Below are positions 11,335 to 28,356 of a stretch of 64,000 nucleotides of DNA, in pieces (the first letter of the stretch is position 1; each line of letters begins with the position of its first letter). The DNA is from Marivirga aurantiaca (GTDB taxonomy: Bacteria > Bacteroidota > Bacteroidia > Cytophagales > Cyclobacteriaceae), in NCBI RefSeq assembly GCF_016679925.1, contig NZ_JAEQBW010000003.1, positions 372,001-436,000 of the forward strand. Reading direction: 5' to 3'. Made by a program: the position numbers and the translations under genes. The notes below the pieces were generated by a model that was given only the letters and a program-made list of their open reading frames with translations, did no database searches and was not told the DNA's origin.

Positions 11335-11341
11335 AATTATT

Positions 11342-12949
11342 ATGATCATTTCAACTGGTAAGAAATACAATAGCGAAGATTTTTATAAAGTAATATTCAC
11401 TAAAGATCCTATTCTTATTGCCGAAAGCACAATAAACAGAATGACCGAAAACTTCTCATTCTTGAAATCTTTTAGCAAAGGGAAAGTCATTTATGGAATT
11501 AATACAGGATTGGGTCCAATGGCACAATTCAAAATAAATGAAAATGAGCAAGTTGACCTTCAATATAATTTAATAAGGAGCCACAGTACAGGTATGGGGT
11601 CTGTTCTTGATGAACAAACCAGCAGAAGCGTAATGCTCGCCAGGCTCATATCTTTATCGCAGGGATACTCTGGCATCTCACCAGAGACAGTGCAGCTTTT
11701 AGCCGAACTGATCAATCTTGAAATATATCCCCACATCTACGACCATGGAGGAGTAGGTGCAAGCGGGGATTTGATACAACTTGCACATTTGGCTTTAGGC
11801 TTAATAGGTGAGGGTAAATGCCGATATAAAGGCAAAGACTATCCTATTATTGATGTAATGACTATGCACAACCTAAACCCAATACAAATTCAGTCAAGAG
11901 AAGGGCTGGCTATTCTGAATGGAACTTCTGCTATGACAGGACTTGGTGTAATTAACTTATTGAACGCCAAAAATCTTCTCAACTGGAGCTTGTCTTCTTC
12001 TGCTATGATCATGGAAATGGTGGAGTCATTTGATGATCATTATTCGGAAAGTTTAAATAAAGTAAAACCCCATAAAGGTCAGAATGATATCGCTTTCAAA
12101 CTAAGGAGCCATCTTGAAGGAAGTAGCTTAATTAGAAAAAGGGCTACTGAAGCTTTTCATGGAGAAAATGGCACCCGACATATTAAAACCAAGGTGCAGG
12201 AATATTATTCCATACGATGTGTGCCCCAGATTTTAGGCCCCATTCACGAAACAATTGAAAAAGCAGAAGAAATTATCCATAATGAAATCAACTCGGTGAG
12301 TGATAATCCTATAGTGGATGATGCTCAGAATGAGGTGTTCCATGGAGGTAACTTCCATGGTGACTACATTTCTTTTGAAATGGACAAGCTTAAAATTGCT
12401 GTAGCCAAGCTATCTGTTCTTAGTGAACGTCAACTGAATTTCTTAATGAATGATAAGTTAAACCAGATATTGCCGCCTTTCCTAAACCTGGGAACACTTG
12501 GGCTCAATTTAGGAATGCAGGGAAGCCAGTTTGTTGCTACTTCTACAACAGCGGAGAATCTTACCTTATCATTTCCGATGTACTTGCACAACATCCCATC
12601 TAATAACGATAATCAGGATGTAGTAAGTATGGGTTTTAACTCAGCACTACTCGCTAAGAAAGTCATCGAAAACACCTATCAGGTAGTATCGGTGCTCGCA
12701 TTAGCTATCACCCAAGGCATTAGTTATTTGAAAATTCGAAATGAGCTGTCGGCTAAATCAAATGCCATATTTAGAAAAATCAGAAGCTTAGTTCCTGTTT
12801 TTACAGAAGACCAAATATTAAGCGATCATTTGAAAATTGTAAATGAGTATTTATTGAACCTCAATAGAGAGTTGGTTGATACTGAATTTAAAAATGAAAT
12901 CAACTATGAACAAGAAGAAGAGATTTGCCCTGGTAACAGGAGCATCTAA
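11342..12949 (+). CDS. Tyrosine/histidine ammonia-lyase (flexirubin-type TAL)
   Basis: MIO-dependent lyase, expected to release ammonia from tyrosine to give 4-coumarate, the aryl starter of flexirubins and aryl polyenes. The MIO tripeptide lies in HGGVGASGDLIQLAHLAL, and YGINTGLGPMAQFKI precedes it. LQYNLIRSHSTG holds the specificity histidine region; GLAILNGTSAMTG, YYSIRCVPQILGP and FHGGNFHGDYIS follow. Order and wording match the Flavobacterium johnsoniae TAL family as I recall it, so tyrosine is favoured over histidine. A TTG at 11318 would extend it upstream, but ATG 11342 fits the family. Its end overlaps the KR gene by 44 bp. Confidence 0.88.
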   Translation: MIISTGKKYNSEDFYKVIFTKDPILIAESTINRMTENFSFLKSFSKGKVIYGINTGLGPMAQFKINENEQVDLQYNLIRSHSTGMGSVLDEQTSRSVMLARLISLSQGYSGISPETVQLLAELINLEIYPHIYDHGGVGASGDLIQLAHLALGLIGEGKCRYKGKDYPIIDVMTMHNLNPIQIQSREGLAILNGTSAMTGLGVINLLNAKNLLNWSLSSSAMIMEMVESFDDHYSESLNKVKPHKGQNDIAFKLRSHLEGSSLIRKRATEAFHGENGTRHIKTKVQEYYSIRCVPQILGPIHETIEKAEEIIHNEINSVSDNPIVDDAQNEVFHGGNFHGDYISFEMDKLKIAVAKLSVLSERQLNFLMNDKLNQILPPFLNLGTLGLNLGMQGSQFVATSTTAENLTLSFPMYLHNIPSNNDNQDVVSMGFNSALLAKKVIENTYQVVSVLALAITQGISYLKIRNELSAKSNAIFRKIRSLVPVFTEDQILSDHLKIVNEYLLNLNRELVDTEFKNEINYEQEEEICPGNRSI

Positions 12950-13661
12950 AGGGATTGGCAAAGCCATCGCACTTGAATTGGCAGATGAAGGATATAATGT
13001 TATCGTCAATTACAACAAAAGTGCGAAAGAAGCAGAAGAAGTAGCCCAACTAATAAGAGAGAAAGGCCAGGAGGCTGTAGCCTTAAGGTTTGACATCTCC
13101 AATAAAAATGAAGTGAATGATATTTTGGGAGGGTGGATTGAAAGCAACACTGAAAACTTTATTGAAATACTTGTAAATAATGCAGGAATAAGAAAGGACA
13201 AGCTCATGATTTTCATGAGTGATGAAGAGTGGGAAGATGTGATTAGCACCAATCTGAATGGATTCTTCTATGTAACCAGAAAAGTTTTGAAAAATATGCT
13301 TTTAAATAAATATGGAAGGATAGTAACCATTTCATCAATGTCCGGAATTAAAGGCAAAGAGGGCCAGGGGAATTATGCAGCCTCTAAAGCTGCACTCATA
13401 GGTGCTTCAAAGTCTCTTTCCAGGGAAGTGGCCAAAAAAGGAATAACAGCCAATGTAGTGGTGCCAGGCTTTATTCGAACCGAGATGACAGAACAAATAA
13501 AAGAAGAAAATTATACGCATGACATCAGTGTAAAAAGATTTGGAGAGCCTGAAGAAGTTGCATCACTTGTCTATTTCCTGAGTTCTCCCAAAGCTTCCTA
13601 TATAACAGGTGAAACCTTTATTGTAGATGGCGGTGATGGATCCTTCAGTCATAGAAACTAA
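12906..13661 (+). CDS. 3-oxoacyl-ACP reductase (FabG-like SDR)
   Basis: Short-chain dehydrogenase expected to reduce the beta-keto group in each extension cycle. It shows the NADP motif ALVTGASKGIGKAIALEL, NNAGIRKDKLM, the catalytic Ser (TISSMSGIKG), and YAASKAALIGASKSLSREVA with the YxxxK pair. The C-terminus is YITGETFIVDGGD. Length is about 251 aa. The open frame begins at 12876, but the ATG at 12906 gives a standard short N-terminus (MNKKKRFALVTG). It overlaps the ammonia-lyase end, implying translational coupling. Confidence 0.9.
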   Translation: MNKKKRFALVTGASKGIGKAIALELADEGYNVIVNYNKSAKEAEEVAQLIREKGQEAVALRFDISNKNEVNDILGGWIESNTENFIEILVNNAGIRKDKLMIFMSDEEWEDVISTNLNGFFYVTRKVLKNMLLNKYGRIVTISSMSGIKGKEGQGNYAASKAALIGASKSLSREVAKKGITANVVVPGFIRTEMTEQIKEENYTHDISVKRFGEPEEVASLVYFLSSPKASYITGETFIVDGGDGSFSHRN

Positions 13662-13691: not shown

Positions 13692-14327
13692 ATGAAAAAA
13701 TTAATCATTTTATTAATCGTATTACTCCCTGTGGTGGGTGTCGCTCAAGAAAGTAAATTCAACACTGAAATGAACTCTTTAGTCAAAGGTTTAGATACCG
13801 CTAATAAACAACCCATGTTTGTTGACTTACTGAATGGCTTCTACAGAGTTTCAGAAATGGAAAAGGAAGAATGGTTACCTAAGTATTATGCTGCTTATTG
13901 CAACATTAGACTCTCCACGTTTTCTCAAGATCCGGACAAAATTGATGAGTATTTGGACAAGGCAATGAGTTTGTGTAAAGAGGTAGAGGATTATACAAGT
14001 AACTCGGAAATTCTTGCCATAATGGGGCGGATTGCCTTTATGAAAACCAGTTTGGATCCCATGACCCGCGGACCAAAATATAGTACCATGACGAAAGAAT
14101 TTTTGAATGAAGCACTTGCTATTAATCCTAAGAATCCAAGGGCGCATTTGATTTATTCACAGTATTACTACTATACTCCGGAATTTTTTGGGGGAGATAA
14201 AGAGACTTCATGCGCTCATTTGGAAAAATCTAAAAATGTTTTTGCAGTGCAAAATTCTAAAGATGGTATAGACCCAAGGTGGGGAGCTAACCTGACAGAC
14301 ATTCTGATTAAAACCAATTGCAATTAA
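13692..14327 (+). CDS. Exported TPR-like protein of the biosynthetic cluster
   Basis: A signal peptide (MKKLIILLIVLLPVVGVAQ) precedes a helical protein of about 190 residues with TPR-like pairs: YLDKAMSLCKEVEDY and FLNEALAINPKNPRAHLIYS. It then has YYYTPEFFGGDKETSCAHLE, a motif I recognise from a Bacteroidota TPR family of unknown function. It is presumably periplasmic. It sits between the ketoreductase and the ATP-grasp gene (30 bp and 6 bp gaps), so a scaffolding or transport role for the product is possible but not shown. Confidence 0.65.
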   Translation: MKKLIILLIVLLPVVGVAQESKFNTEMNSLVKGLDTANKQPMFVDLLNGFYRVSEMEKEEWLPKYYAAYCNIRLSTFSQDPDKIDEYLDKAMSLCKEVEDYTSNSEILAIMGRIAFMKTSLDPMTRGPKYSTMTKEFLNEALAINPKNPRAHLIYSQYYYYTPEFFGGDKETSCAHLEKSKNVFAVQNSKDGIDPRWGANLTDILIKTNCN

Positions 14328-14333
14328 AAGAAT

Positions 14334-15329
14334 ATGATTTTAATTCTTGGATATGAAAATTTTGAACAAGGTACTGATCCGGTAATTGACTGGCTTTTAT
14401 TTCACAAAGCCAACTTTATCAAGGTAACGCTGGATAGCCTGTTTTTCCGGGAAGAATCATTTCATATTGACGTAAATAATTCTAAGATATATTACAAAGG
14501 CATTGACCTTGGTAAAGAGGTAAATGTAGTTTGGTATCGAAGGTTCAAAGATGATAGGAAGATAGGCTATAAAGAAGCTAAACATGCGGATTTAAAAGAC
14601 AGCCTTTCACTGAATCTCCAGGCAGAGTTGTCTACCATTTTCGACTATATCTGCCACATATTAAAGGACAAGCTTTGGCTACCACCTCCAGAAAGGTTTT
14701 ACACTAATAAATTATTGAATCTTAACCTTGCTCAGCAGGCTGGTTTTCGGGTCCCTGCTACCTCTGTTACTAACAGTAAGCAAGTAATTAAAGAAACAGT
14801 GAATTTCCGAAAAAAAAGCTCAATTACAAAGCCTATATCGGAAGGAGCAAGGCGTTTGCTACAAGCGGGCAACTTAACCTTTATCCAATTTGCAAAAACG
14901 ATAGAAGCCAACATACTGGATGAATTACCGGATTTCTTTTTTCCGTCCTTAATTCAGGATAAGCTTAAGATAGATTATGAAATAAGGGTATTCTTTTTAG
15001 CCGGTAAATTATTTGCCACAAAAATAGAATCTTCAGAAGAAGAAAGCAGTGATGATAGACGGACTCAGGATGAAAGTAAATTGGTTCATAGTCCTTATAC
15101 TTTGCCGGAATCTGTTGCTGAAATGGTAAATGAATTTATGCGGTTAGCTAATTTAAATAGCGGCTGTATTGATCTGGCAAAATGTGAAAGAGATGAGTTT
15201 TTTTTCCTCGAAGTTAATCCGGTAGGACAGTATCTCTTCGAATCAAAAAAATGTAATTACTACATCGAACGGGAAATAGCCAACTGGCTGGTCCAAAACG
15301 ATAGGAGTAGTCAAATGAAAATAGCATGA
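14334..15329 (+). CDS. Grasp-with-spasm ATP-grasp peptide ligase (GwsG-like)
   Basis: ATP-grasp enzyme of the peptide-maturase type that activates Glu/Asp side chains to make macrocyclic ester or amide links (graspetides). The N-terminus MILILGYENFEQGTDPVIDWL matches the GwsG family pattern, followed by VNVVWYRRF. The ATP-grasp core shows SITKPISEGARR, the tandem acidic DYEIRVFFLAGKLFATKIES, and the metal-binding FFFLEVNPVGQYLFE. At 331 aa it has the usual length. It lies inside a polyene-type operon, and its stop overlaps the next start by four bases (ATGA). The substrate is presumably the peptide at 18801-18956. Confidence 0.82.
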   Translation: MILILGYENFEQGTDPVIDWLLFHKANFIKVTLDSLFFREESFHIDVNNSKIYYKGIDLGKEVNVVWYRRFKDDRKIGYKEAKHADLKDSLSLNLQAELSTIFDYICHILKDKLWLPPPERFYTNKLLNLNLAQQAGFRVPATSVTNSKQVIKETVNFRKKSSITKPISEGARRLLQAGNLTFIQFAKTIEANILDELPDFFFPSLIQDKLKIDYEIRVFFLAGKLFATKIESSEEESSDDRRTQDESKLVHSPYTLPESVAEMVNEFMRLANLNSGCIDLAKCERDEFFFLEVNPVGQYLFESKKCNYYIEREIANWLVQNDRSSQMKIA

Positions 15330-15565
15330 AACAGGAAGAAGATACAGATTTGACAGCTTATTTTGATATGGAAAAATTGCCTCTGGGGTATAAATTTATT
15401 CAGGCAATCCCTTTAAAAGATATTAAGGAGTTCAGGAGTTCAGATCGGTTTTCTACAAGTGCGCTACATTTTGCGACTTTATTTCAAAAAGAGACCCTTT
15501 ACAAACCCATTTCTGACTTAACATTTAATTTTTCCTTAACCAATGAAAAACAATCTAAAAGTTAG
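15326..15565 (+). CDS. Small protein of unknown function, coupled to the ATP-grasp gene
   Basis: 79 residues, no signal peptide, no membrane span, no cysteine. Visible segments include MEKLPLGYKFIQAIPLKD and FSTSALHFATLFQKETLYKP. The start overlaps the ATP-grasp stop (ATGA) and its end overlaps the thioesterase start by 23 bp, so it is firmly inside the operon. I recognise no family. It could be an adaptor, or a second substrate peptide of the ligase, since it has Ser/Thr and acidic residues; neither is shown. Confidence 0.6.
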   Translation: MKQEEDTDLTAYFDMEKLPLGYKFIQAIPLKDIKEFRSSDRFSTSALHFATLFQKETLYKPISDLTFNFSLTNEKQSKS

Positions 15566-15959
15566 CCTGGATGTTCCAATAAGGTTTAGTGAAGTTGACT
15601 CACTGTCTATTGTATGGCACGGAAACTATCTAAAGTATTTTGAGGATGTCAGGGAAGAGTTTGGAAGAAAATTCGGCTTTGATTACCTCTCGGTGAGGGA
15701 TTTAGGTTATGTGATGCCTATTATTACAGTAGACCTAAAATACAAAAAAGCCATTCGTTATGGTGATTTGCTGACGGTGAACATCTTTTATAAATATAGC
15801 AAGGCAGCCAAATTGTGTTTTGACTATACAATACAAAATCAGGAACAGGAATTAATGTGTACTGGATACTCAGAACAAGTGTTTTTAGACTTGAATGATA
15901 AGCTCCAGATTATTGATCCACCATTCTTTAAAGCATGGAAAGAAAATCAGAACGTATGA
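15543..15959 (+). CDS. 4HBT-type acyl thioesterase
   Basis: Hot-dog fold thioesterase of 138 aa. The signature VPIRFSEVDSLSIVWHGNYLKYFEDVRE corresponds to the 4-hydroxybenzoyl-CoA/FadM-like motif (RxxEvD...HxxYlxyfexxRe), followed by VDLKYKKAIRYGDLLTV. Related thioesterases occur in aryl-polyene and flexirubin clusters and are expected to release or proof-read ACP-bound chains. Its stop overlaps the next KS start (ATGA at 15956-15959). Confidence 0.85.
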   Translation: MKNNLKVSLDVPIRFSEVDSLSIVWHGNYLKYFEDVREEFGRKFGFDYLSVRDLGYVMPIITVDLKYKKAIRYGDLLTVNIFYKYSKAAKLCFDYTIQNQEQELMCTGYSEQVFLDLNDKLQIIDPPFFKAWKENQNV

Positions 15960-17092
15960 AAATGCACCAGGTATTTACTGTTTCGGACGGTCTGTATATT
16001 CCCTTGGGAAGCGATACCCAACAAGTTTTTAAGGAGGTTAAAGATGGTGTTTCATCGATTAAGGAAGGGCAGCGATTTGATTTCCCTGAAACAACCTATG
16101 TTTCTCAATTTTCGGATGATCCGAGTTTGTCTTACGAGGGTTCTTCCCGACTGGAGGCAATGGCTAAGCAATCGATTAAAAATTCAATTGCTAAGCTGCC
16201 AAGGAAGTTAGATACTGAAGATACAGGCTTCATAATATGTACTACTAAAGGAAATATTGACTTGCTGGAACCGGAAAAAACATTTTCACAACAATCAAAC
16301 GAAATGTATTTGTTCAGGCTGGCCAGCAAGCTCTCCACATATTTTGGAATACCTCATAAGCCTATAGTTATCAGCAATGCCTGTACATCAAGCCTGCTGG
16401 GGTTAATCCACGGAATGAGAATGATAATGTGCGGGAAGTACAAACATGTGATTGTTACGGGAGCAGATATTGTATCAGCTTTTACCTTATCAGGATTTAG
16501 ATCTCTTAAGGCGCTCAGTAGTTCTTATTGCAAGCCTTTTGATAATGACAGGGATGGAATTAATCTGGGAGAAGGGGCCGGCACAATCATCATTTCAGCG
16601 GATGCTTCTCTAAGCAGTTATCCGGAACAAATTATTTTGTCTGATGGATTTACTTCAAATGATGGTACACACATCTCAGCTCCACATAGAAATGGAGAGG
16701 GTTTGCATACCATCCTTAGGAAATTGGTTTCAAAACACGGAGCATCTACCTCAGACTTTATTTCGGCCCATGGCACAGGAACAAAGTTTAATGATGCCAT
16801 GGAAGCGCGGGCAATCACCCGCTCAGGTCTCCAGAATACTCCAATTCATAGCCTGAAACGGTATTTTGGACATACTTTAGGAGCCTGTGGAATAGTAGAA
16901 AGCATAATCTGCATTCAGGGAATGTTGCAGAATCTATTAATCCCATCATTGGGACTCAACAAACTTGGCACAGACGACTATCTTAACATGGTCAGGCGGC
17001 CTGAGGAACGAGAATTAAGATCATTTATTAAAATGGGAGCCGGTTTTGGCGGTTGCAATGCGGTCATACGATTTCAAAAAGCAGAGGCATAA
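15956..17092 (+). CDS. Beta-ketoacyl synthase (type II, FabF/B-like), first of the cluster
   Basis: Condensing enzyme extending the ACP-bound chain. The catalytic Cys is in VISNACTSSLLGLIHGMRM; the two histidines are in SAHGTGTKFNDAMEA and KRYFGHTLGACGIVES; a glycine-rich GAGFGGCNAVI closes the fold. It is about 378 aa. The start at 15956 overlaps the thioesterase stop and is preferred over the ATG at 15935. Its N-terminus is somewhat shorter and more divergent than that of the second KS at 19023, resembling ApeO-type stand-alone initiating KSs. Confidence 0.88.
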   Translation: MKMHQVFTVSDGLYIPLGSDTQQVFKEVKDGVSSIKEGQRFDFPETTYVSQFSDDPSLSYEGSSRLEAMAKQSIKNSIAKLPRKLDTEDTGFIICTTKGNIDLLEPEKTFSQQSNEMYLFRLASKLSTYFGIPHKPIVISNACTSSLLGLIHGMRMIMCGKYKHVIVTGADIVSAFTLSGFRSLKALSSSYCKPFDNDRDGINLGEGAGTIIISADASLSSYPEQIILSDGFTSNDGTHISAPHRNGEGLHTILRKLVSKHGASTSDFISAHGTGTKFNDAMEARAITRSGLQNTPIHSLKRYFGHTLGACGIVESIICIQGMLQNLLIPSLGLNKLGTDDYLNMVRRPEERELRSFIKMGAGFGGCNAVIRFQKAEA

Positions 17093-17095
17093 AAA

Positions 17096-17716
17096 ATGGA
17101 AACATTCAATTACTCAGTAATAAAATCAGGAATGATAAAGTCGAGCCAATACCCGGAGTTCAATTGGGATGGCACTACATCTGCTGATACGAATTTTCTT
17201 CAAAGTCTTTATGAAAAGATGAAGGTGGAATATCCTAAGTATTATAAGATGAATGAACTCTGTCAATCAGGTGTATTGAGTGCATTGCTCTCCCTTCCTA
17301 AAAATTATGAAGTGGATTATGATCCGGATAAACTTGGGCTAATAGTGCAAAACAATTCATCAAGCCTTGTTTCGGACTTTCCCTATTCAAAGGAATACTA
17401 TTGTACTAGAGAAAAAATATACCAACCAAAACCTTCTTTATTTACATATACACTGCCCAATATTTTGATTGGGGAAATATGCATCAAACAAAAACTTCTG
17501 GGAGAAAATTTTTTCTTCATAAGTGAAGAATTCGATCTCGAACCCATTTTGGATGAGGTAAGGTTTTTATTTGAAACCGGTGTGCTGGAAGGCTGTTTGA
17601 TCGGATGGGCCGAAGTGAATCCTGACAATATCAATAATTTCTTTTTCTTTTTAACACCTGATTCATTCAATAATCATCAATTAGGCGAGCAAATAAATCA
17701 ATTATACTTTCACTAA
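17096..17716 (+). CDS. Truncated ketosynthase-like protein lacking catalytic residues
   Basis: 206 residues matching only the N-terminal half of a KS fold: LGLIVQNNSSSLVSD, then PSLFTYTLPNILIGEICIKQ, KLLGENFFFISEEFD and the ETGVLEGCLIGWAEV strand. Where a KS has its ACSSS nucleophile elbow this protein has a phenylalanine/glutamate segment, and there is no C-terminal half with the histidines. Such KS-like fragments are known from Bacteroidota aryl-polyene and flexirubin clusters, presumably as subunits or scaffolds. It lies between the KS (3 bp gap) and the ACP (13 bp gap). Confidence 0.7.
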   Translation: METFNYSVIKSGMIKSSQYPEFNWDGTTSADTNFLQSLYEKMKVEYPKYYKMNELCQSGVLSALLSLPKNYEVDYDPDKLGLIVQNNSSSLVSDFPYSKEYYCTREKIYQPKPSLFTYTLPNILIGEICIKQKLLGENFFFISEEFDLEPILDEVRFLFETGVLEGCLIGWAEVNPDNINNFFFFLTPDSFNNHQLGEQINQLYFH

Positions 17717-17729
17717 AAATCACAAAAAA

Positions 17730-17996
17730 ATGGAAAATTTACTTAACAATCTGAAACAACAAATTATTGACCAAATCAATTTAGTGGGTCTTACTCCCGA
17801 AAGTATCGACAACGATTCTCCTATTTTCAATGAGGGACTGGGTTTGGACTCAATCGATGCATTGGAAATTGTAGTTCTTCTCGAACAACATTATGGAATC
17901 CTGGTAAATAACCCTGAAGATCTTTCTGATCACTTTGTGTCAATTAGGACACTGGCAGAGTTTATTGAAAAGAACCAGGTAAGTGCGGTAAGCTAA
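17730..17996 (+). CDS. Acyl carrier protein
   Basis: 88-residue ACP with the phosphopantetheine serine in FNEGLGLDSIDALEIVVLLE (GxDS-I/L motif). A helical C-terminus follows (SIRTLAEFIEKNQ). It carries the growing polyene chain for the neighbouring ketosynthases and is activated by the PPTase encoded 9 bp downstream. It is the only ACP gene found in the cluster. Confidence 0.93.
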   Translation: MENLLNNLKQQIIDQINLVGLTPESIDNDSPIFNEGLGLDSIDALEIVVLLEQHYGILVNNPEDLSDHFVSIRTLAEFIEKNQVSAVS

Positions 17997-18005
17997 AAAA
18001 CGGGC

Positions 18006-18644
18006 ATGCAAGCCAGGAAATCTTTCCCTATCTCAATCGGGCACAATAGAAGTTCCTTTTCTGCAATCCTCTGTATTTCTTACAATGAAATGCAAGAAAG
18101 CAAAGCACTTTTAGCTTATGGGTTGAAGCAGATTTCCCCCAAAGCACAGGGAATTAGAGTAGAGAAAGGTTTTTTTGGAGACCCGTTGCTGATTCATGAA
18201 AGTGAATCATCTTATCAGGCATCAGTTTCCCATTCATCATCGATAACCGGTGTAATAGTAACAAATGCATGTATCCCCATTGGGCTGGATATTGAAAAAA
18301 TTAAGCCCAGGGATTACAAATGTTATTTTACTGATGGGGAAAGAAGCTTGATACAGGCTCATGATAAATTTTATCAACCCGCTTTGGAAACACTTTTATG
18401 GGCAACCAAAGAGGCCTTATCCAAAGCAATCAGGCTTGGTTTTACAGTAGATGTTTCCATCTATACGGTAAAGTCGATTCAAATTAAAGATGGCATAGTC
18501 TTTTTCAAATTTGTTCATTTCCCAAGGTTTCAATGCCAGGGAATAATAATGGAAGATGAGTATGCCTTGGCAATAGCCTATCCGCTGGAGGTAGACCTTC
18601 TGTTAACAGAAGAAATCCTAAGCCTCCGGGGAGAATATGTATAG
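18006..18644 (+). CDS. 4'-phosphopantetheinyl transferase
   Basis: Converts apo-ACP to holo-ACP using CoA. It shows the Mg-binding PIGLDIEKIKPRDY motif and the second signature LLWATKEALSKAIRLGF (WxxKEAxxKA). VSHSSSITGVIV is the conserved his-ser segment that contacts CoA. At 212 aa it is of the Sfp/AcpT class. It is directly downstream of its likely substrate ACP and upstream of the 156-bp gap that precedes the peptide gene. Confidence 0.9.
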   Translation: MQARKSFPISIGHNRSSFSAILCISYNEMQESKALLAYGLKQISPKAQGIRVEKGFFGDPLLIHESESSYQASVSHSSSITGVIVTNACIPIGLDIEKIKPRDYKCYFTDGERSLIQAHDKFYQPALETLLWATKEALSKAIRLGFTVDVSIYTVKSIQIKDGIVFFKFVHFPRFQCQGIIMEDEYALAIAYPLEVDLLLTEEILSLRGEYV

Positions 18645-18800
18645 AAAAAATCAATTGAAGATTCATAAGAAATTAGTATCAAACCTTAGTAAAAGGATTT
18701 GATCATAAACATTAATTTAAAGTCATCGATGCAATTTAAATTAGTTAGGGAAAGCTGAAAACCTAAACCAGAGTAGGCAAAAAAAATAAATTTTAATACA

Positions 18801-18956
18801 ATGAATAATTTAAGAAACACAGAAAAATTACAAGAAGGTCTAGCAATGGTAGAATTAGAAGAAAGACTAGAAATGGTTCAACTTCAGTTGTCTGAAGAAG
18901 CTGCTGCTAGCTTACTTTGTGACTTCGGATCTGTTGAAGTTCAGGTTGCTGAATAA
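18801..18956 (+). CDS. Candidate RiPP precursor peptide (51 aa)
   Basis: A small ORF of 51 residues in the middle of the cluster, with its own 156-bp upstream region and a strong terminator 10 bp after the stop. The leader-like half begins MNNLRNTEKLQE and carries a tandem nine-residue repeat, GLAMVELEE and RLEMVQLQL. The C-terminal half is SEEAAASLLCDFGSVEVQV followed by AE, with three Ser (31, 37, 44), one Cys (40) and five acidic residues, suitable for Ser-to-Glu/Asp links made by an ATP-grasp ligase. Gene context (ATP-grasp, SPASM protein, PqqD-peptidase) is the main support; I recall no known precursor with this sequence. Confidence 0.72.
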   Translation: MNNLRNTEKLQEGLAMVELEERLEMVQLQLSEEAAASLLCDFGSVEVQVAE

Positions 18957-18965
18957 TTTTACTAC

Positions 18966-18988
18966 GGGCACCTACTTTTTGGGTGCCC
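18966..18988 (+). terminator. Terminator/attenuator directly after the peptide gene
   Basis: A stem of gggcacc with ggtgccc and a 9-nt loop is followed by a T-rich run (to about 19002). It lies between the peptide gene and the second ketosynthase. Such a partial terminator allows abundant precursor mRNA with reduced read-through into enzyme genes. Confidence 0.85.
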
Positions 18989-19022: not shown

Positions 19023-20204
19023 ATGAAAGTGTATGTAACTGGCATGGGTATTATTTCGGCATTGGGAGTTGGGAAAGATGCGACTATTAAATCTTTAAAG
19101 ATGAATCGTTCTTTCATAACAAAGTCATCCGATCAGGAAGGTATTTGGTCAGAAAAGCACTTTGGAGAAGTTCCATTTTCAACTGAGGAATTAGTAGAGA
19201 ACTCGGAATTTAATGAAGGACTTTCCAATCGCACCCTATCATTGGGTATTATAGCGGCCCGGGAAGCTTTAAAACAATCAAATATTGAGGTTGACAAGAA
19301 CAATAGAGTTGGGCTTGTATTCTCTACAACTGTTGGAGGAGCATCCTTAACAGAAAAACATTACAAAAATTACCTTTCAGGAACTAGCACACCTAATTTC
19401 TTTAAGTCTAATGACATTACCTACAATGCCATGGCTATTAGCAGTGCACTAGGTATCACACAAAATATTTCAACAATTAACACAGCATGTTCTTCCTCTG
19501 CCCATGCCATTGCATATGGGGCAAGATTAATTAAAGGAGGGATGCTTGATCAGGTTATTGTTGGCGGCTCGGATGCATTAAGTTATTCAACCATCCACGG
19601 ATTTAACTCGCTCTGCCTACTGACGGATGGAGTATGTAAACCATTTGATAGAAATAGAAAAGGAATAAATCTGGGAGAAGGAGCAGGATTTATATGTCTT
19701 GAGTCAGAATCAGCAATTAAAAAAAGGCAATCAAAAGCACTATGTCAGCTTTCAGGATATGGCCTTACAAATGATTTCCATCATATTTCTTCTTCCTCTC
19801 CTGAGGGGCAAGGAATTCAATTGGCAATGCAAAAGGCCATGGAAATGACCAATTGTAACCCTGAAGATATTGGCTATCTGAATGCCCACGGCACAGCCAC
19901 ACCTAATAACGACCTTACAGAAGGCATAGCAATCAAAAAAATATTTAATAATCACCCACTTTCATTTAGTTCTACGAAATCAATGACAGGACATACATTG
20001 GCTGCGGCAGGAGTGATTGAGTCTATATTGTCCATACTGGCTATGAACAATAGCTTTTTAATTCCAAATGTCAATTTTGAGGAAACAATGCCGGAACACC
20101 AGATGATGCCTGTTTCCGCACCCGAAGACAAGGAAATCAATCATGTATTAACCAATGCAGCAGGTATGGGCGGTTACTGTTCATCTTTATTATACTCTAA
20201 ATAA
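19023..20204 (+). CDS. Beta-ketoacyl synthase II-like (FabF-like), second of the cluster
   Basis: Complete KS of 393 aa starting MKVYVTGMGIISALG. The nucleophile lies in STINTACSSSAHAIAYGAR; the histidines are in YLNAHGTATPNNDLTEG and SSTKSMTGHTLAAAGVIE; the C-terminus has TNAAGMGGYCSS. It is followed by a KS lacking the Cys, which together look like the KS-alpha/chain-length-factor pair of aromatic-polyene and type II PKS systems. It lies just after the terminator of the peptide gene, so it may be served by read-through or by its own promoter. Confidence 0.92.
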   Translation: MKVYVTGMGIISALGVGKDATIKSLKMNRSFITKSSDQEGIWSEKHFGEVPFSTEELVENSEFNEGLSNRTLSLGIIAAREALKQSNIEVDKNNRVGLVFSTTVGGASLTEKHYKNYLSGTSTPNFFKSNDITYNAMAISSALGITQNISTINTACSSSAHAIAYGARLIKGGMLDQVIVGGSDALSYSTIHGFNSLCLLTDGVCKPFDRNRKGINLGEGAGFICLESESAIKKRQSKALCQLSGYGLTNDFHHISSSSPEGQGIQLAMQKAMEMTNCNPEDIGYLNAHGTATPNNDLTEGIAIKKIFNNHPLSFSSTKSMTGHTLAAAGVIESILSILAMNNSFLIPNVNFEETMPEHQMMPVSAPEDKEINHVLTNAAGMGGYCSSLLYSK

Positions 20205-20211
20205 GCTCAAA

Positions 20212-21180
20212 ATGTATATTCAACAGGCTTTTCTTGTCAACACCGAATGGTCCAGCGATGCGCAGGCATTTCAGGTAATGGGTATGGACTTTTCCAGCTT
20301 CTATAATGAAAATCAAATTAGAAGAATGAACAAGATTAATAAAATCGGACTATTTGGGGCACTTAACTGTAACCGCTCTTCCGGTGATATTAATTTTGAT
20401 GCGATAGTGCTGGGAACTGGTTTTGGAGGTGCAGACTCATCGGATCAATTCCTGGAAAGCATTGTGATGGAAAAACCAAAATCTCCCTCTTTATTTATTC
20501 AATCCCTGCATTCGACATTAACCAGCCATATTGCAATAGCTTTGAAGTGTAATGGCTATACCATCACACATATTAACAAAGGAGCGGCTTTTGAAAATGT
20601 TCTGACAGATAGCATGTTGTTGCTGAATGAATCTCCTGATCATCAGGTACTCATTGGAGGTGTGGATATTTTATCTGAGCAAAAATATAACCTGGTTCAT
20701 AGTCATACTATTTCCAAATCATTAACTGCTCCTGAAACTAAGATTCCCAAACTAGGGGAGGGAGGAGCATTCTTTCATCTGTCATCGCAGAGTAATGCAG
20801 GTTCATTGGGTAAGATCTTAGCACATAAGTCTTTTCTGAAGAATGATAGTGATATGCTCAAGAATGAAATTAAAGCCTCATTAAGCAAAGAAAATATCTC
20901 TCTTTCAAATTTAGGTATTTTGTTAGGCTGTGAGTCTGAGGATGAAGAAACAAAAGAATTTTTCGCTCCTATTATGGAGCAATTAGAAGATATTAATCAG
21001 CTGATTTACTACAAAGATTATTGTGGTGAATTTCCTACGAGTACCAGCTTCGGAATGTGGTTGGGGACCAGCAGGGAAGAAACTCCGGTAAGTATTGATC
21101 CTGAAGTCAGTCATATTTTGGTCATCAATCAGTTTGACCAAACCTACCTTAGCTATGTACTCATTGAATTAATAAAATAG
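20212..21180 (+). CDS. Chain-length-factor-like ketosynthase without active-site cysteine
   Basis: About 322 aa. It has KS-like segments AIVLGTGFGGADSSD, LTSHIAIALKCNGYTITHINKGAAFENVL and VLIGGVDILSE. The position aligned with the nucleophile Cys (NTACSSS in the preceding KS) reads NKGAAFE, so the Cys is replaced. The C-terminal histidine motifs are also not recognisable. This is the pattern of KS-beta/CLF partners, which set chain length with the upstream KS. The open frame begins at 20155, but ATG 20212 (MYIQQAFLVNTEW) avoids overlap with the upstream KS and starts 8 bp after its stop. Confidence 0.75.
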   Translation: MYIQQAFLVNTEWSSDAQAFQVMGMDFSSFYNENQIRRMNKINKIGLFGALNCNRSSGDINFDAIVLGTGFGGADSSDQFLESIVMEKPKSPSLFIQSLHSTLTSHIAIALKCNGYTITHINKGAAFENVLTDSMLLLNESPDHQVLIGGVDILSEQKYNLVHSHTISKSLTAPETKIPKLGEGGAFFHLSSQSNAGSLGKILAHKSFLKNDSDMLKNEIKASLSKENISLSNLGILLGCESEDEETKEFFAPIMEQLEDINQLIYYKDYCGEFPTSTSFGMWLGTSREETPVSIDPEVSHILVINQFDQTYLSYVLIELIK

Positions 21181-21187
21181 TGAAATT

Positions 21188-22468
21188 ATGGCAAATATTG
21201 GAATAATTACAGCCCCGGTACCCGGGCATATAAACCCTTTTCTTTTAATAGGGAAGGAGCTTATGAACAACGGGCATAACGTTACATTTTTCAATATTGA
21301 AGATGTCATGGAGAAAGTATTGTCCGAAGGAATCAACTTTCATGTAATAGCTAAAGGACTTATGCCCCGCGGATCCGTGAAAAGTTTGCAGAAAAGATTG
21401 GCAGATTTAAGCGGGACCGAAGCTATGAGGTACTGGCAGGAAGATTATATCAAACTTCTTAAGTTGATGTTGATATCACTTCCAACAGCCATTGTTAAAG
21501 AAAAGATTGATTTCTTATTGGTTGATCAAAGCGATGGTGCCGGTGGGTCGGTAGCTGATCATTTGGGTATTCCTTATGTTACATTGGCCATTGGTTGCAA
21601 CATGAGTTGGGAGCCGGATTTACCCCCGGTATTTACACCCTGGGGCTATAATGCCAGTGAGGGAGGAAGGACCCGGAATACAATTGCCATGAAAAAGATC
21701 AAGGAAAACTTTCAGCCGCTGACTGACCTTATTAATTACTATAGAGAGCGATGGAATTTACCTCTTTTTGAAAGTGAATCTGAGGTTTTTCCTACCTCTG
21801 ATTTGGCTCAAATAAGTCAAATGATTAAAGAATTTGATTTTCCAAGGAAACAACTGGCAGAAAATTTTCTTTACACAGGTCCTTTTAGAGGAGTTATGAC
21901 AAAGAGTTGTGACTTTCCTTACGAGAAAAGAAATGGCAAACCTTTGGTTTATGTTTCCCTGGGGACCATTATTAATCTAAAACCGGAAATTTTTCTTGAA
22001 ATAGGAAATGCCTGTAAAGATCTGGATGTCCAATTGGTTTTTGCCTTAGGGGCACCTTTAGAGGATCATAAAGAGTTACAGCAAATTTCAGGCGATCCCA
22101 TTATTGTGCCTTATGCCCCTCAATTTGAAGTATTATCGCATGCCAGTCTATGCATAACCCATGCAGGCCTAAATACAGTGCTTGATGCTCTGGGCAATGG
22201 AGTTCCTTTAATAGCGGTTCCTATCTCTTTTGATCAGCCAGGTACAGCAGAGCGTATTAAATATCATCATTTAGGTAAAGTACTCAATATCAAATATATC
22301 AATAAAGAGCTTATCCGGGAAACTATAGCTGAAGTGCTGGAAGACCAGAACATTCAGGCAAGATGCAGAGACATGCAACAACTTTTATCAAATACTACAG
22401 GAATTAAAACGACTGTAAATCATATCGAAGAAATTATCCATAAATCTTTAAAACCTATACAAGTATGA
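21188..22468 (+). CDS. UGT/MGT-family glycosyltransferase
   Basis: GT1-family transferase (GT-B fold), 426 aa. It starts NIGIITAPVPGHINPFLLIGKEL, a typical acceptor-domain start, and contains the C-terminal nucleotide-sugar motif VPYAPQFEVLSHASLCITH, then AGLNTVLDALGNGVPLIAVP and FDQPGTAERI. Best resemblance is to macrolide glycosyltransferases and CrtX-like carotenoid glucosyltransferases, so a sugar is probably added to the polyene or its aryl head group. It overlaps the next gene by 4 bp. Confidence 0.88.
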   Translation: MANIGIITAPVPGHINPFLLIGKELMNNGHNVTFFNIEDVMEKVLSEGINFHVIAKGLMPRGSVKSLQKRLADLSGTEAMRYWQEDYIKLLKLMLISLPTAIVKEKIDFLLVDQSDGAGGSVADHLGIPYVTLAIGCNMSWEPDLPPVFTPWGYNASEGGRTRNTIAMKKIKENFQPLTDLINYYRERWNLPLFESESEVFPTSDLAQISQMIKEFDFPRKQLAENFLYTGPFRGVMTKSCDFPYEKRNGKPLVYVSLGTIINLKPEIFLEIGNACKDLDVQLVFALGAPLEDHKELQQISGDPIIVPYAPQFEVLSHASLCITHAGLNTVLDALGNGVPLIAVPISFDQPGTAERIKYHHLGKVLNIKYINKELIRETIAEVLEDQNIQARCRDMQQLLSNTTGIKTTVNHIEEIIHKSLKPIQV

Positions 22469-23532
22469 ACTTTTACAACAATGATAACATCAAGGCGGTA
22501 GACGCCAGAAGTAAAGCTTACCTCATTTCATTTGCCCCCATTGTTTTCCAGGTCACCCGAATAATGGTGGACTCCGGTATCTTGGCGGAAATCCGTGATA
22601 GCAAGAAAACGGGACTTACTCTTGAAGAAATCGTGGAAGGAAAAAACATGTCTTTATATGGTGTAAGGGTTCTGCTGGAAGCAAGCCTGGGCACTGGACT
22701 TATTTACATGAATGATGATAGGTACCTGATTGGAAAAACAGGGGTTTTCATTCTTAACCAGGAAGCCATAAAAATCAATATGGATTTTGTGCACGATGTG
22801 TGCTATAAATCGATGTTTTATTTGGATGAAAGCATTCAAAATGGCAAACCGGAAGGTCTGAAACAGTTAGGTGAATGGAATACTATCTATGATGGACTTT
22901 CAGAATTGCCTGAGCAGATAAAAACAAGCTGGTTTAATTTTGATCATTACTTTTCCGATGATGCATTTCCGGTTGCACTTCCTATTATTTTACAGGAGAA
23001 ACCTAAGAAAGTAATGGATATAGGTGGCAATACAGGAAAATTCGCCATTAAACTGGCCGCGCTGGATCCGGATGTTAACATTACTATAGTTGATCTGCCG
23101 GGCCAAATAGGTATGGCCAAAGAAAACATTAAAAGAGAAGGGCTAAGCGATCGCGTTTCATTTCATGCAATGAATGTGCTGGATGAAAGTTCAGTGATCC
23201 CAGGTGGTTTTGATGTGATATGGATGAGTCAGTTTTTAGACTGTTTCTCAGAAGAGGAAAATACGGCCATCCTTAAAAAAATAGCCAGTGGCATGAGCGA
23301 GGATTCTACTATTTACATTTTAGAAGAATTTTGGGATAAGCAACGTTTGGAAGTAGCTTCTTTCAGTCTGCAACAACTTTCACTTTATTTTACAGCTATA
23401 GCCAATGGCAATAGCCAAATGTATGATAGCAAAGTGTTTTTTAGGTGCATCGAAAAGGCTGGATTGAAAATAGAAAATGAATGGAATGACCTGGGACTAA
23501 GCACCACCCTGCTTAAAGTTAAAAAAGCCTGA
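22465..23532 (+). CDS. SAM-dependent O-methyltransferase (dimerising, winged-helix type)
   Basis: 355 aa. The N-terminal ~130 residues are a winged-helix dimerisation domain (ADSGILAEIRD-like segment MVDSGILAEIRDS, and MSLYGVRVLLEASLG). The Rossmann part has the SAM motif KVMDIGGNTGKFAIKLAAL, then VDLPGQIGMAKENIKREGL, FDVIWMSQFLDCFSEEE and the IYILEEFWDKQR strand. This is the plant-type/CrtF-like OMT2 family, fitting methylation of a phenol on the aryl group. The start codon overlaps the end of the glycosyltransferase. Confidence 0.85.
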   Translation: MNFYNNDNIKAVDARSKAYLISFAPIVFQVTRIMVDSGILAEIRDSKKTGLTLEEIVEGKNMSLYGVRVLLEASLGTGLIYMNDDRYLIGKTGVFILNQEAIKINMDFVHDVCYKSMFYLDESIQNGKPEGLKQLGEWNTIYDGLSELPEQIKTSWFNFDHYFSDDAFPVALPIILQEKPKKVMDIGGNTGKFAIKLAALDPDVNITIVDLPGQIGMAKENIKREGLSDRVSFHAMNVLDESSVIPGGFDVIWMSQFLDCFSEEENTAILKKIASGMSEDSTIYILEEFWDKQRLEVASFSLQQLSLYFTAIANGNSQMYDSKVFFRCIEKAGLKIENEWNDLGLSTTLLKVKKA

Positions 23533-23575: not shown

Positions 23576-23992
23576 ATGATAGTCAATGAAAATGCACGGG
23601 AGATTCCAGCGGTAAACAATGACTTGTTCCTGATGTCCGGATGGCAAGAAAACTGCAAAGGTTATTCTGTCAATATCCACATTAACAAACCTCATCCTAT
23701 TTTTGAGGGACATTTTCCGGGTAATCCTATTATTCCGGGGGTCTGTTTACTGGTTCTTTTCAGAAAAATATTGAATTGCTCTGAAGCATTTAAAAGCTGC
23801 CGGCTTAACTGCGATACAATGAAGTTTGTCAATGTATTGAATCCAATTCTGTACGATAGCTTTGAGGTGGAAATAGTCTCAAACAGCGAGACAAATAAAG
23901 TGAAAATAGAAGCTAAGTCCGACAGCACCTTATTTGCAGTGCTTCTCGGAAGTATAAATAAGCATTCTTATGAAATGAGCATAAATCTATAA
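23576..23992 (+). CDS. 3-hydroxyacyl-ACP dehydratase (FabZ/ApeI-like hot-dog)
   Basis: 138 aa with the HPIFEGHFPGNPIIPGVCLLVLF motif of FabZ-type dehydratases (HFPGxPxxPGV, including the catalytic His). The rest includes KFVNVLNPILYDSFEVEI. It is expected to dehydrate the beta-hydroxyacyl-ACP intermediate to give the conjugated polyene. It is preceded by a 43-bp gap, and followed by a 95-bp gap with a small GC hairpin at 24046-24061. Confidence 0.85.
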   Translation: MIVNENAREIPAVNNDLFLMSGWQENCKGYSVNIHINKPHPIFEGHFPGNPIIPGVCLLVLFRKILNCSEAFKSCRLNCDTMKFVNVLNPILYDSFEVEIVSNSETNKVKIEAKSDSTLFAVLLGSINKHSYEMSINL

Positions 23993-24045: not shown

Positions 24046-24061
24046 CCCCGACTAATCGGGG
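24046..24061 (+). repeat. Small GC-rich hairpin
   Basis: ccccg actaat cggg plus g forms a 5-bp stem in AT-rich DNA just before the CoA-ligase start. Similar ccccg...cggg hairpins next to catagcctgcc-type sequence occur at 9340-9354, so it is probably a repeat family and not a specific regulator. Confidence 0.5.
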
Positions 24062-24087
24062 TGACAATTAGAAACAAGCATATACAC

Positions 24088-25398
24088 ATGAAAAACTACT
24101 TTACATATAGCGATCACCCGGTACTTGTTTCAAAGCCTCATCAAAATTTACAAACGGGAAAGCTTCAGGAGCTCTTTGTTTATCTGAACAGCTTTTCCCC
24201 ATTTTATAAAAAAATATTTGAGGAGAAAGGGATTGGTTTGAACCAAATCCGGGAGATAAGTGACATTAGGGAATTGCCTTTTACAGAGAAAGATGATTTC
24301 TGTCTTGGGGAAAGTTTTTACTGCGTTCCTGAAGAAAAAGTAGTTGATATAGTCAATACGTCAGGGACCACAGGTGAACCTGTAGACATTATATTGACAG
24401 ATAGCGATTTGGAAAGACTGGCTGTAAATGAATATATGGCCTTGACTTGTGCCGGTGTTTCCTCTCTGGATAAAATTCAGATTATGGTCACTATGGATCA
24501 ACGATTCATGGCAGGAGTAGCATACTTTCTTGGAGTTAAAAAGATTGGAGCCAGCATGATCAGAACAGGTATTGCTCCCATAGCTTCCCAACTAAATGAT
24601 CTTCTGAGGTTGAAGCCTACTGTATTAATAGCTGTTCCGAGTTATGTGGTGAGGCTTATTGAATATGCACAAGAAAGAAATATAGATTTAAATAAAAGTA
24701 GTGTTAAGAAAATTATTGCTATTGGGGAGTCTATCAGGAATGATGATTTTTCATTTAATAATTTAGGTAAGAAAATCGTTAAAAACTGGGGAGTTGATTT
24801 ATTTTCCTCCTATGGAGCTTCTGAAATAGCAACTGCATTTACAGAATGTAGTGCGCAGCAAGGAGGGCATGCTCCCACAGACCTGGTTCATATTGAGTCT
24901 GTAGATGAATTAAACAGGCAGGTTGAGCCGGGCCAGATTGGTGAATTGGTTGTTACTACTTTTGGCGTGGAGGGAATGCCTTTGTTACGATATAAAACAG
25001 GGGATTTGTGCCGGGTATATTATGATAGGTGCTCCTGCGGAAGAACAAGTCCAAGGATAGGCCCAATACTAGGTAGAAAAAACCAGATGATTAAGTATAA
25101 AGGCACCAAGATTTACCCTGCTTCAGTCATTGATGCCATCCACAGCCTTGATACTATTAAAGATTATTTTATTGAATTAAGCTCAAATGAATACGGGCTT
25201 GACTTACTAACAATATATCTGACAGGTATGAGAGAACCTTCAGACCTGAATATTGACGAAATAAGAACCTATATCAAGTCGAAAATCAGGGTTTCCCCAC
25301 TTGTTATTGTTGAACATTTGGAAAATATTATGAAGCGTCAACGCATCCCGCTAAAACGCAAAAACATTAAGTTTCAGGATATCAGAAAAAGCCATTAA
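24088..25398 (+). CDS. Phenylacetate-CoA-ligase-like AMP-forming enzyme
   Basis: Adenylate-forming ligase of the PaaK/F390-synthetase type, about 436 aa. The P-loop is IVNTSGTTGEPVDIIL; SSYGASEIATAFTE is the aromatic core; LLRYKTGDLCRVYYDRC is the hinge region, followed by the CSCGRTSPRIGPILGRKNQM segment and the YPASVIDAIHSL C-terminal domain. It is expected to activate 4-coumarate from the ammonia-lyase and so prime the synthase. The GTG at 24061 is unlikely; ATG 24088 is preferred because it is separated from the hairpin and matches the family N-terminus. Confidence 0.88.
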   Translation: MKNYFTYSDHPVLVSKPHQNLQTGKLQELFVYLNSFSPFYKKIFEEKGIGLNQIREISDIRELPFTEKDDFCLGESFYCVPEEKVVDIVNTSGTTGEPVDIILTDSDLERLAVNEYMALTCAGVSSLDKIQIMVTMDQRFMAGVAYFLGVKKIGASMIRTGIAPIASQLNDLLRLKPTVLIAVPSYVVRLIEYAQERNIDLNKSSVKKIIAIGESIRNDDFSFNNLGKKIVKNWGVDLFSSYGASEIATAFTECSAQQGGHAPTDLVHIESVDELNRQVEPGQIGELVVTTFGVEGMPLLRYKTGDLCRVYYDRCSCGRTSPRIGPILGRKNQMIKYKGTKIYPASVIDAIHSLDTIKDYFIELSSNEYGLDLLTIYLTGMREPSDLNIDEIRTYIKSKIRVSPLVIVEHLENIMKRQRIPLKRKNIKFQDIRKSH

Positions 25399-25400
25399 TT

Positions 25401-26612
25401 ATGAAAGACGTTATGTCGATTACCAGCCATACTCAAATTTTAGAACAAATTCAGCTGACGAAAATTGATTCCAAAAACCATATATTAAAATATCATTCAC
25501 GGCATTATAATATAGGTGAAATATTATACAAAATAATTTTTCACTTACAGAGTCATAAGCCTCTAAGGGATATTTTGGATACAATTTATCATGAGCATGA
25601 GGTGCGTATTGAAGAGGAAGAGCTGGAAAAAATTATATCAGATACTTTTGAGAAAGTAGATGCTCCCAAAGAAAAGGATACCAATTCTTATATTTATGGA
25701 AGGGTAAAATTGATCGGTAAAGATTTGATAAAAAAAATCACCCCATTTTTCACCTTTCTTTTTAAGAAATCCATCTTTCTTACGCTTTTCACTTTATTCT
25801 CACTTACCAGCTTATATTTTATCTATTACCTTTATAGTCAGGGTTTAATGGAGTCTTATTTCTCTATTGGAGATTATCCTGCCTATCTAATCGTCTATTA
25901 TGTATTAATTATAGTAATAGGCATGTTACATGAATTTGGACATGCTATAGCCGCCAGACGCCATAATATTGATTCTGAAGAAATAGGTTTTGGGTTCTAT
26001 TTAGTATTTCCGGTTCTTTTTACAAATCTAACCGCTATCTGGAGCTTACCTAAGAAAACCCGTGCCCTCATTAATATGGGAGGTATTTATATTCAGCTTT
26101 TTGTCAATGTGATACTGATTATCATTTTCTTTTTGATGCCCAAGAGCATTGAATTAGTGGTACTCGTGAAATCTGTCTTTATTATTAACAATGTGATGTT
26201 AATGATTTCTATTAATCCATTTTTCAGAAACGATGGGTATTGGATTTACAGTGATTTATTTGGTATTAATAACCTAAGTGAAAAAGCAAGCAAGTACCCC
26301 ATGGTTTTGTTTAACAGATTAAAGGCAGGGAAAATCTTTAACTTTTTCTCGCTAAAAGAGATTCCATTGGCACTATACTCTTTGCTTACCTATCTTCTTT
26401 TTGCCGTTTTAATTACCGCTTTGTGTTTGCTAACCTATAAGAATTACTTCCTGGTGAAAGATTTTTTCACCAATCCTAAGCCGGAAAGCTCTTTCGAACT
26501 TATTTCAAGTATCGCCAAAGCATTATTCTCCCTGGCTCTGAATGCAATGTTCCTTTTTGTTACTACTAAAAGGATCGGAAGACTTGTTAAACGATCTTTT
26601 ATTTGGGTTTGA
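25401..26612 (+). CDS. PqqD-like domain fused to an M50-type membrane metallopeptidase
   Basis: 403 aa. The N-terminal ~90 residues (YNIGEILYKIIFHLQSHKPL, then DILDTIYHEHEVRIEEEELE) look like a PqqD peptide-recognition domain. A membrane peptidase follows with about six spans. The zinc-binding helix reads IVIGMLHEFGHAIAARRHN (HExxH), and NPFFRNDGYWIYSDLFGINN supplies the third ligand (NPxxxxDGY). Such PqqD-M50 proteins mature or export peptides in RiPP operons; here it may cleave the leader of the 51-aa peptide. It starts 2 bp after the CoA ligase. Confidence 0.83.
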   Translation: MKDVMSITSHTQILEQIQLTKIDSKNHILKYHSRHYNIGEILYKIIFHLQSHKPLRDILDTIYHEHEVRIEEEELEKIISDTFEKVDAPKEKDTNSYIYGRVKLIGKDLIKKITPFFTFLFKKSIFLTLFTLFSLTSLYFIYYLYSQGLMESYFSIGDYPAYLIVYYVLIIVIGMLHEFGHAIAARRHNIDSEEIGFGFYLVFPVLFTNLTAIWSLPKKTRALINMGGIYIQLFVNVILIIIFFLMPKSIELVVLVKSVFIINNVMLMISINPFFRNDGYWIYSDLFGINNLSEKASKYPMVLFNRLKAGKIFNFFSLKEIPLALYSLLTYLLFAVLITALCLLTYKNYFLVKDFFTNPKPESSFELISSIAKALFSLALNAMFLFVTTKRIGRLVKRSFIWV

Positions 26613-26614
26613 TT

Positions 26615-28352: not shown

Positions 28353-28356
28353 AAAT

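Follow-up and report, generated by a model that had tools for sequence, protein, structure and literature searches.

The window, by which we mean the whole 64,000-nucleotide stretch of Marivirga aurantiaca DNA analysed here, carries between positions 10168 and 29623 a set of genes that combines a flexirubin- or aryl-polyene-like type II polyketide synthase (PKS) with a RiPP-type system. The PKS part includes FlxA and FlxY, the two marks of a flexirubin cluster, both above the curated NCBIfam cut-offs, FlxB just below its own, two ketosynthases (KS1 and KS2), a chain-length factor (CLF), an acyl carrier protein (ACP), a phosphopantetheinyl transferase (PPTase), a thioesterase, dehydratases, and transferases for glycosyl and methyl groups. 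The RiPP part comprises an ATP-grasp protein of the grasp-with-spasm type, a 79-residue LPL protein, a SPASM-w-grasp-like protein and an M50 protease. The features, all on the forward strand, are:

10168–11334 (+), LpxM/PatA-type acyltransferase with a C-terminal RRE-like domain at about residues 312–388 (PF03279, AlphaFold2 model, fold matches)
11318–12949 (+), FlxA tyrosine ammonia-lyase, for the aryl starter (NF053541, 758.6 bits, cut-off 700)
12876–13661 (+), FlxB-like ketoreductase (NF053542, 332 bits, cut-off 340)
13692–14327 (+), 211-residue protein with a signal-peptide-like N-terminus, conserved in the hybrid clusters; no Pfam or NCBIfam match
14334–15329 (+), ATP-grasp peptide ligase of the grasp-with-spasm type (TIGR04192, 193 bits, E 7.5e-57, cut-off 230)
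15326–15565 (+), LPL-family small partner, 79 residues, LPLGY; homologues directly after the ATP-grasp gene in related loci
15543–15959 (+), 4HBT thioesterase
15935–17092 (+), ketosynthase KS1
17096–17716 (+), conserved 206-residue protein, present too in a canonical flexirubin cluster
17730–17996 (+), acyl carrier protein (PF00550)
18006–18644 (+), phosphopantetheinyl transferase (PF01648)
18745–18779 (+), DUF805b RNA element (RF02914), probably folding as a pseudoknot and presumed to lie in the 5' leader of the mRNA for the precursor
18801–18956 (+), RiPP precursor gene, 51 residues (ORF, homologues, dN/dS)
18855–18881 (+), leader motif LEERLEMVQ, residues 19–27, presumed to be bound by RREs (alignments)
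18909–18923 (+), S37-L-L-C40-D41, predicted Ser-Asp ester site enclosing Cys (S-x3-D counts)
18966–18988 (+), intrinsic terminator-like hairpin between the precursor and KS genes
19023–20204 (+), ketosynthase KS2
20155–21180 (+), chain-length-factor-like KS
21188–22468 (+), UDP-glycosyltransferase-like protein, with a counterpart in the Lewinella cluster
22465–23532 (+), O-methyltransferase, with a counterpart in the Lewinella cluster
23576–23992 (+), FabZ/FabA-like dehydratase (weak scores)
24061–25398 (+), FlxY acyl-CoA-ligase-like protein (NF053551, 524 bits, cut-off 520)
25401–26612 (+), M50 site-2-type membrane protease with an N-terminal RRE-like domain at about residues 5–88 (PF02163, AlphaFold2 model, fold matches)
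26603–27601 (+), SPASM-w-grasp-like protein with no radical-SAM or SPASM cysteine ligands (TIGR04193, 131.6 bits, cut-off 175)
27585–28352 (+), SDR reductase
28330–29061 (+), SAM methyltransferase
29180–29623 (+), second FabZ/ApeP-like dehydratase

Upstream of the cluster lie a CRP/FNR-type regulator gene (8600–9226, +), which is a candidate cluster regulator, and a gene for a chloramphenicol-acetyltransferase-like protein (PF00302; 6874–7527, −). Three kb downstream is a gene for a LanB-like lantibiotic dehydratase (32715–35315, +; PF04738, PF14028 and TIGR03891), which possibly represents a separate RiPP system; a lanthipeptide route through this enzyme was considered and set aside as a part of the conserved system, the fetched stretches of the homologous clusters showing no such dehydratase.

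The ORF at 18801–18956 is translated as MNNLRNTEKLQEGLAMVELEERLEMVQLQLSEEAAASLLCDFGSVEVQVAE, with a leader running from M1 to about L28 and a core of about Q29–E51, the cleavage boundary being putative. It is present as a single copy in the 5.0-Mb, 99.98% complete genome. The first-pass annotation had proposed an overlooked modified-peptide precursor gene here, and several of its observations hold: the 156-bp upstream region is real, the preceding gene stopping at 18644, and Ser31, Ser37, Cys40, Asp41 and Ser44 stand at the positions claimed. The nine-residue tandem repeat that it read in the leader (GLAMVELEE/RLEMVQLQL) has to be given up, because its two halves agree at 4/9 positions here and at 1–5/9 in sister precursors, so that the repeat is incidental and not conserved; what the alignments indicate as conserved is a single block, LEERLEMVQ. 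The features that are real are this motif of the leader, the core with S-x3-D and Cys, the RNA element, and the two partner enzymes bearing RRE-like domains.

Homologues of the peptide were reached by three independent routes, namely BLAST, the genes around a maturase homologue and a profile search. BLAST within the family returned a homologue in a Cyclobacteriaceae genome (G048), the genes around the best-matching SPASM homologue included one in Hymenobacter cavernae, of which strain CGMCC 1.15197 has the cluster, and the profile search of the phylum gave a further one in Edaphocola (G634). When the leader motif was back-translated and run against genome contigs, loci in Flavobacterium, Chryseobacterium, Arcticiflavibacter and Lewinella and additional ones in Hymenobacter were recovered, while matches in coaD-like and large ORFs (L060, L064, L067, L069 and L080) were discarded as chance. 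We stress that loci from the leader scan carry LEERLEMVQ by construction, so that an unchanged motif in them proves nothing; the three other routes yielded loci that do not depend on the pattern.

The family thus assembled extends to six or more further genera of Bacteroidota; its leader reads [V/A]xLEERLEMVQ, and its tail, which contains Cys, is variable. Its members are 46–61 residues long, with the N-terminal half nearly fixed, the C-terminal half variable and Cys always present, and several loci contain two to six tandem copies. Values of dN/dS lie at 0.04–0.3 in most same-genus pairs and reach 0.5 in a few, which indicates purifying selection; the value of 1.0 for the window and G048 precursors is taken across a divergent alignment, and distant or saturated pairs are uninformative. 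The check that the first-pass annotation had itself proposed, conservation of the reading frame in homologous clusters, therefore bears it out: the frame is conserved in Hymenobacter, in Lewinella and in the compact Cyclobacteriaceae cluster, and also in Flavobacterium, Chryseobacterium, Edaphocola and Arcticiflavibacter. The shortness of the ORF would be compatible with a chance open frame, but the homologues refute this reading and the purifying selection speaks against it as well, leaving it a negligible probability. No Pfam or NCBIfam model matched any precursor examined, and BLAST found the peptide in none of the nine congeners searched, which indicates that the cluster is patchily distributed. 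A short ORF with a conserved leader, a divergent core and adjoining maturation enzymes has what distinguishes a RiPP precursor, and we regard the 51-residue ORF as almost certainly one.

Every precursor with sufficient flanking sequence has two constant neighbours, a gene for an M50 protease and one for an LpxL-like protein, regardless of the presence of PKS or ATP-grasp genes (in G048 the LpxL-like gene is cut at the contig end and gives a weak match). In the window the LpxL-like gene stands apart, at the cluster's far end. In the AlphaFold2 model of its product (mean pLDDT 75.5), the core has fold matches of the LpxM/PatA type (5kn7, E 1.5e-10; Z about 20), while the C-terminal domain matches the RREs of TbiB1, ThcOx, TigE, MccB and PbtF at Z 5.8–7.5, a range where common arrangements score too and in which other winged-helix domains also matched; Foldseek gives TbiB1 with a probability of 0.99. 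The precursor-linked acyltransferases keep the His of the HX4E motif but not its acidic residue, which makes acyltransferase activity uncertain. The acyltransferase of a canonical flexirubin cluster (F. cupreum) has an intact HX4E and lacks the RRE-like extra domain. For the M50 protease (mean pLDDT 78.6), the catalytic core matches the site-2 proteases RseP, SpoIVFB and MjS2P at Z 9–10.5, the N-terminal domain matches TbiB1 (Z 8.0), lasso B1 (7.6) and PqqD (6.5), and H177, E178 and H181 are invariant; we presume this protein to be the leader peptidase. Although the RRE matches are overall of middling Z (4–8), both partner enzymes are predicted to carry RRE/PqqD-like domains of the type that binds RiPP leaders.

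The position of the gene among PKS genes in three lineages would also suit a conserved small accessory protein, such as a PKS chaperone or adaptor, rather than a precursor. This is very improbable: precursors occur in tandem copies, with a fixed N-terminus and a variable Cys-containing C-terminus, the family occurs without a PKS and is elsewhere paired with radical SAM/SPASM proteins, and the partner enzymes bear RRE-like domains.

Turning to the chemistry of the core, the ATP-grasp ligase is conserved across the homologous clusters and its EVNP motif is kept in most homologues and replaced by close variants in the rest; used as a query against the genome contigs, the protein gave no match. 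The LPL gene lies directly 3' of the ATP-grasp gene in nine compared loci, and PMC8939145 describes the LPL family, in graspetide loci of Bacteroidota, as a putative chaperone of the precursor. The SPASM-like proteins of the window, Hymenobacter, Lewinella and G048 are without the CxxC ligands retained in remote relatives (G596, G426 and G409). With neither CX3CX2C nor SPASM ligands radical SAM chemistry is unlikely, and because the cysteine ligands have been lost a scaffold role is the likelier one.

The spacing of Ser, Cys and acidic residues to which the first-pass annotation had drawn attention proves meaningful, since S-x3-D enclosing a Cys occurs exactly in the precursors linked to an ATP-grasp gene: 10/10 of these have it, versus 0/13 of the others (Fisher p 9e-7, a value that overstates the case because the sequences are not independent). 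The linked precursors come from Cyclobacteriaceae, Hymenobacter and Lewinella. Counted as linked was the Lewinella locus L065, which comes from a fragmented MAG that has the ATP-grasp gene on a different contig; part of the cluster of Hymenobacter piscis (L063) is likewise on another contig, and Chryseobacterium and one Flavobacterium genome, with remote ATP-grasp homologues elsewhere, were counted as not linked. The Lewinella core is near-identical to that of the window peptide (..SLLCDFG..). Ser and Asp are thus conserved in the core of ATP-grasp-linked precursors, as in graspetides, and the simplest prediction, a moderately likely one, is that an ester joins Ser37 to Asp41.

Another possibility is that the ATP-grasp protein acts otherwise, for instance by coupling the peptide or the polyene to an amino acid or small acid, with Ser and Asp kept for a different reason; PGM1-type ligases provide the model. 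The TIGR04192 score under its cut-off, the small size of the ring that S-x3-D would form and the missing GG cleavage motif are in keeping with such an activity, whereas the perfect tracking of S-x3-D with ATP-grasp linkage and the retention of EVNP and of the LPL partner count against it, and we judge it improbable. A GG motif with a C39 peptidase/ABC transporter is usual, not universal, in graspetides; no such peptidase/transporter was found among the cluster genes searched, which have the M50 protease instead.

The homologous clusters of Hymenobacter (L046/L045; L092) and Lewinella (L089/L090) contain, within the fetched stretches, KS, CLF, ACP and AMP-ligase genes together with ATP-grasp, LPL, SPASM-like, M50 and LpxL-like genes and one or two precursors, and the gene content of the Lewinella cluster is almost identical to that of the window. 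In all three lineages the RiPP and PKS genes are interleaved rather than side by side. DarA is needed to make dialkylresorcinol, the normal partner molecule of flexirubin. No DarA was found in any of seven genomes (six with the hybrid cluster, the window's own included, and G048), and no full-length DarB orthologue either, the hybrid-cluster genomes giving weak KASIII-type matches only, which in the window's genome are partial; by contrast, both DarA and DarB are present in 4/4 controls, genomes that encode a FlxY homologue. A different acceptor for the polyene would therefore be required, and the acyltransferase-fold protein with its RRE-like domain would be the obvious link between polyene and peptide.

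The main rival to a hybrid product is that the locus makes two that are never joined: an aryl polyene, free or esterified in some other way, and a graspetide-like peptide made independently of it under the guidance of RREs. The compact cluster of G048 (L044:7917–12559) can be read this way, as it has the precursor, ATP-grasp, LPL, SPASM-like and M50 genes with no PKS nearby, and so can the Flavobacterium, Chryseobacterium and Edaphocola loci, with precursor, LpxL-like and M50 genes but not this PKS. It sits less well with the interleaving of RiPP and PKS genes in three lineages, with the lack of a DarA match in hybrid-cluster genomes and with an RRE-like domain on an acyltransferase-fold protein, and we consider separate products rather unlikely. 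The G048 cluster also encodes an arginase-family protein with an additional N-terminal domain of about 100 residues, a possible peptide-arginase system.

We therefore favour, as a probable though not secure account, that the ORF is the precursor of a hybrid RiPP/type II PKS pathway with an aryl-polyene/graspetide-like product. In this pathway, the RREs would likely hold the LEERLEMVQ leader, and the ATP-grasp ligase, scaffolded by LPL and the degenerate SPASM-like protein, would form the Ser37-Asp41 ester, a step we rate as moderately likely. It is plausible that the PKS would build a 4-hydroxyphenyl polyene on its ACP and that the RRE-bearing acyltransferase would transfer this polyene not to a dialkylresorcinol but to the peptide, perhaps at Cys40, which is conserved, or elsewhere in the core. 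Removal of the leader at the membrane by the M50 protease is moderately likely, whereas decoration of the product by the methyl- and glycosyltransferases is speculative, as is the idea that the dose of precursor is kept high, or is regulated, by the DUF805b RNA together with the terminator that follows the gene. Against the hybrid, the ATP-grasp and SPASM models score under their NCBI cut-offs. Moreover, the LpxL-like protein is found in PKS-less loci too, and the acyl donor therefore need not be a polyene.

The RNA element lies 21 nt before the ATG and scores 36.5 bits in cmscan (gathering cut-off 35.6). It also precedes the precursors of G048, Hymenobacter, Arcticiflavibacter and Flavobacterium, some of these sister elements being below the Rfam cut-off or found by pattern only; no match to the pattern was seen ahead of the precursors of Lewinella, Chryseobacterium and Edaphocola. 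Several sister loci, like the window, exceed the gathering score of DUF805b, but these elements differ from the Rfam description in standing ahead of RiPP precursors and in having a second covarying helix that is missing from the Rfam structure line. This helix, G[CU][CU]/[AG][AG]C (18749–18779 in the window), crosses the Rfam helix. Across 15 sequences both helices covary, with 93% of cells paired versus 76% in shuffles; the second is 100% paired and two of its three pairs have changes on both sides, although the pattern used for the collection permitted C/T and A/G alone at those positions, which favours pairing somewhat. The covariation supports the prediction of an H-type pseudoknot. The genome has a second above-cut-off DUF805b on contig 11 (L053:1674–2164), upstream of a predicted 147-residue lipoprotein, and in G582 (L048:14384–15880, −) the element stands in front of a different graspetide-type precursor, one with a GG motif (MKKLLEKLTSVDNYQLVDLNKARGVFGGYSVSHDTSVSNDTS...).

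The strong terminator noted by the first-pass annotation stands as a structure: the hairpin at 18966–18988 has nine pairs (GGGCACCTACTTTTTGGGTGCCC) followed by a T-rich tail, and among the terminator-like matches in the region it ranks first by number of pairs and by number of G-C pairs. As a statistical signal it does not stand out, the region having three such matches versus 2.4 ± 1.8 in shuffles, which is no excess. A gene for a UpxY-family transcription antiterminator (31922–32425, −; NF033644, above cut-off) also lies in the window, and its product could help RNA polymerase to pass this internal terminator.

Among known systems, the locus resembles the Bacteroidota grasp-with-spasm graspetides (ATP-grasp branch 5 in a passage of PMC8939145) in encoding ATP-grasp, LPL and SPASM-type proteins together with a short precursor that has Ser and Asp in its core. 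It differs from them in the absence of a GG motif, in the leader LEERLEMVQ, in a SPASM-like protein without cysteine ligands, in the M50 protease and acyltransferase with RRE-like domains, and in being embedded in a type II PKS cluster. FlxA, FlxB-like and FlxY proteins, KS pairs, CLF, ACP, dehydratases and thioesterase are shared with flexirubin and aryl polyene clusters; the lack of DarA/DarB for the dialkylresorcinol half, the acyltransferase with its RRE-like domain and the interleaved RiPP genes are not. Daptide and epipeptide maturation proteases (NF041824 and NF058609) likewise belong to a membrane HExxH protease family in RiPP clusters, but the window M50 protein, for which an N-terminal RRE-like domain is predicted, differs in scoring low against these models (daptide_HExxH 66.5 bits, cut-off 300; 40.1, cut-off 225). 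Lipolanthines, goadvionins and selidamides are RiPPs joined to a lipid or polyketide and rely on lanthipeptide-type or GNAT enzymes. The proposed product shares with them the idea of a ribosomal peptide acylated by a PKS or FAS chain, while the enzymes differ: here the acyltransferase-fold protein is of the LpxM/PatA type and has an RRE-like domain, and the PKS is of the flexirubin type. Lipolanthines also feature in PMC10435860. Within the open-access literature searched we found no paper on a flexirubin-graspetide hybrid, on a RiPP with a lipid A acyltransferase or on DUF805b, and an earlier description is possible. A hybrid of a cross-linked peptide and a coloured fatty chain would be a kind of molecule of which we found no description there.

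For the phylum as a whole, we see an even chance that there is a Bacteroidota RiPP family defined by the LEERLEMVQ leader and the M50/acyltransferase pair, both membrane enzymes with RRE-like domains, and that this family in three lineages, Cyclobacteriaceae, Hymenobacter and Lewinella, has merged with a PKS and an ATP-grasp ligase to give aryl-polyene-acylated, ester-bridged peptides. An apparently ordinary flexirubin-type pigment cluster would thereby become a pathway predicted to yield a peptide/polyene hybrid from a substrate that is defined. LEERLEMVQ, DUF805b and the acyltransferase with an RRE-like domain together provide a search key for the precursor family, which escapes the current models of Pfam and NCBIfam, and the family in turn gives the structured RNA DUF805b a concrete context. 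The enzyme class that we propose, an RRE-guided LpxM/PatA-type acyltransferase, may be of use in lipidating peptides.
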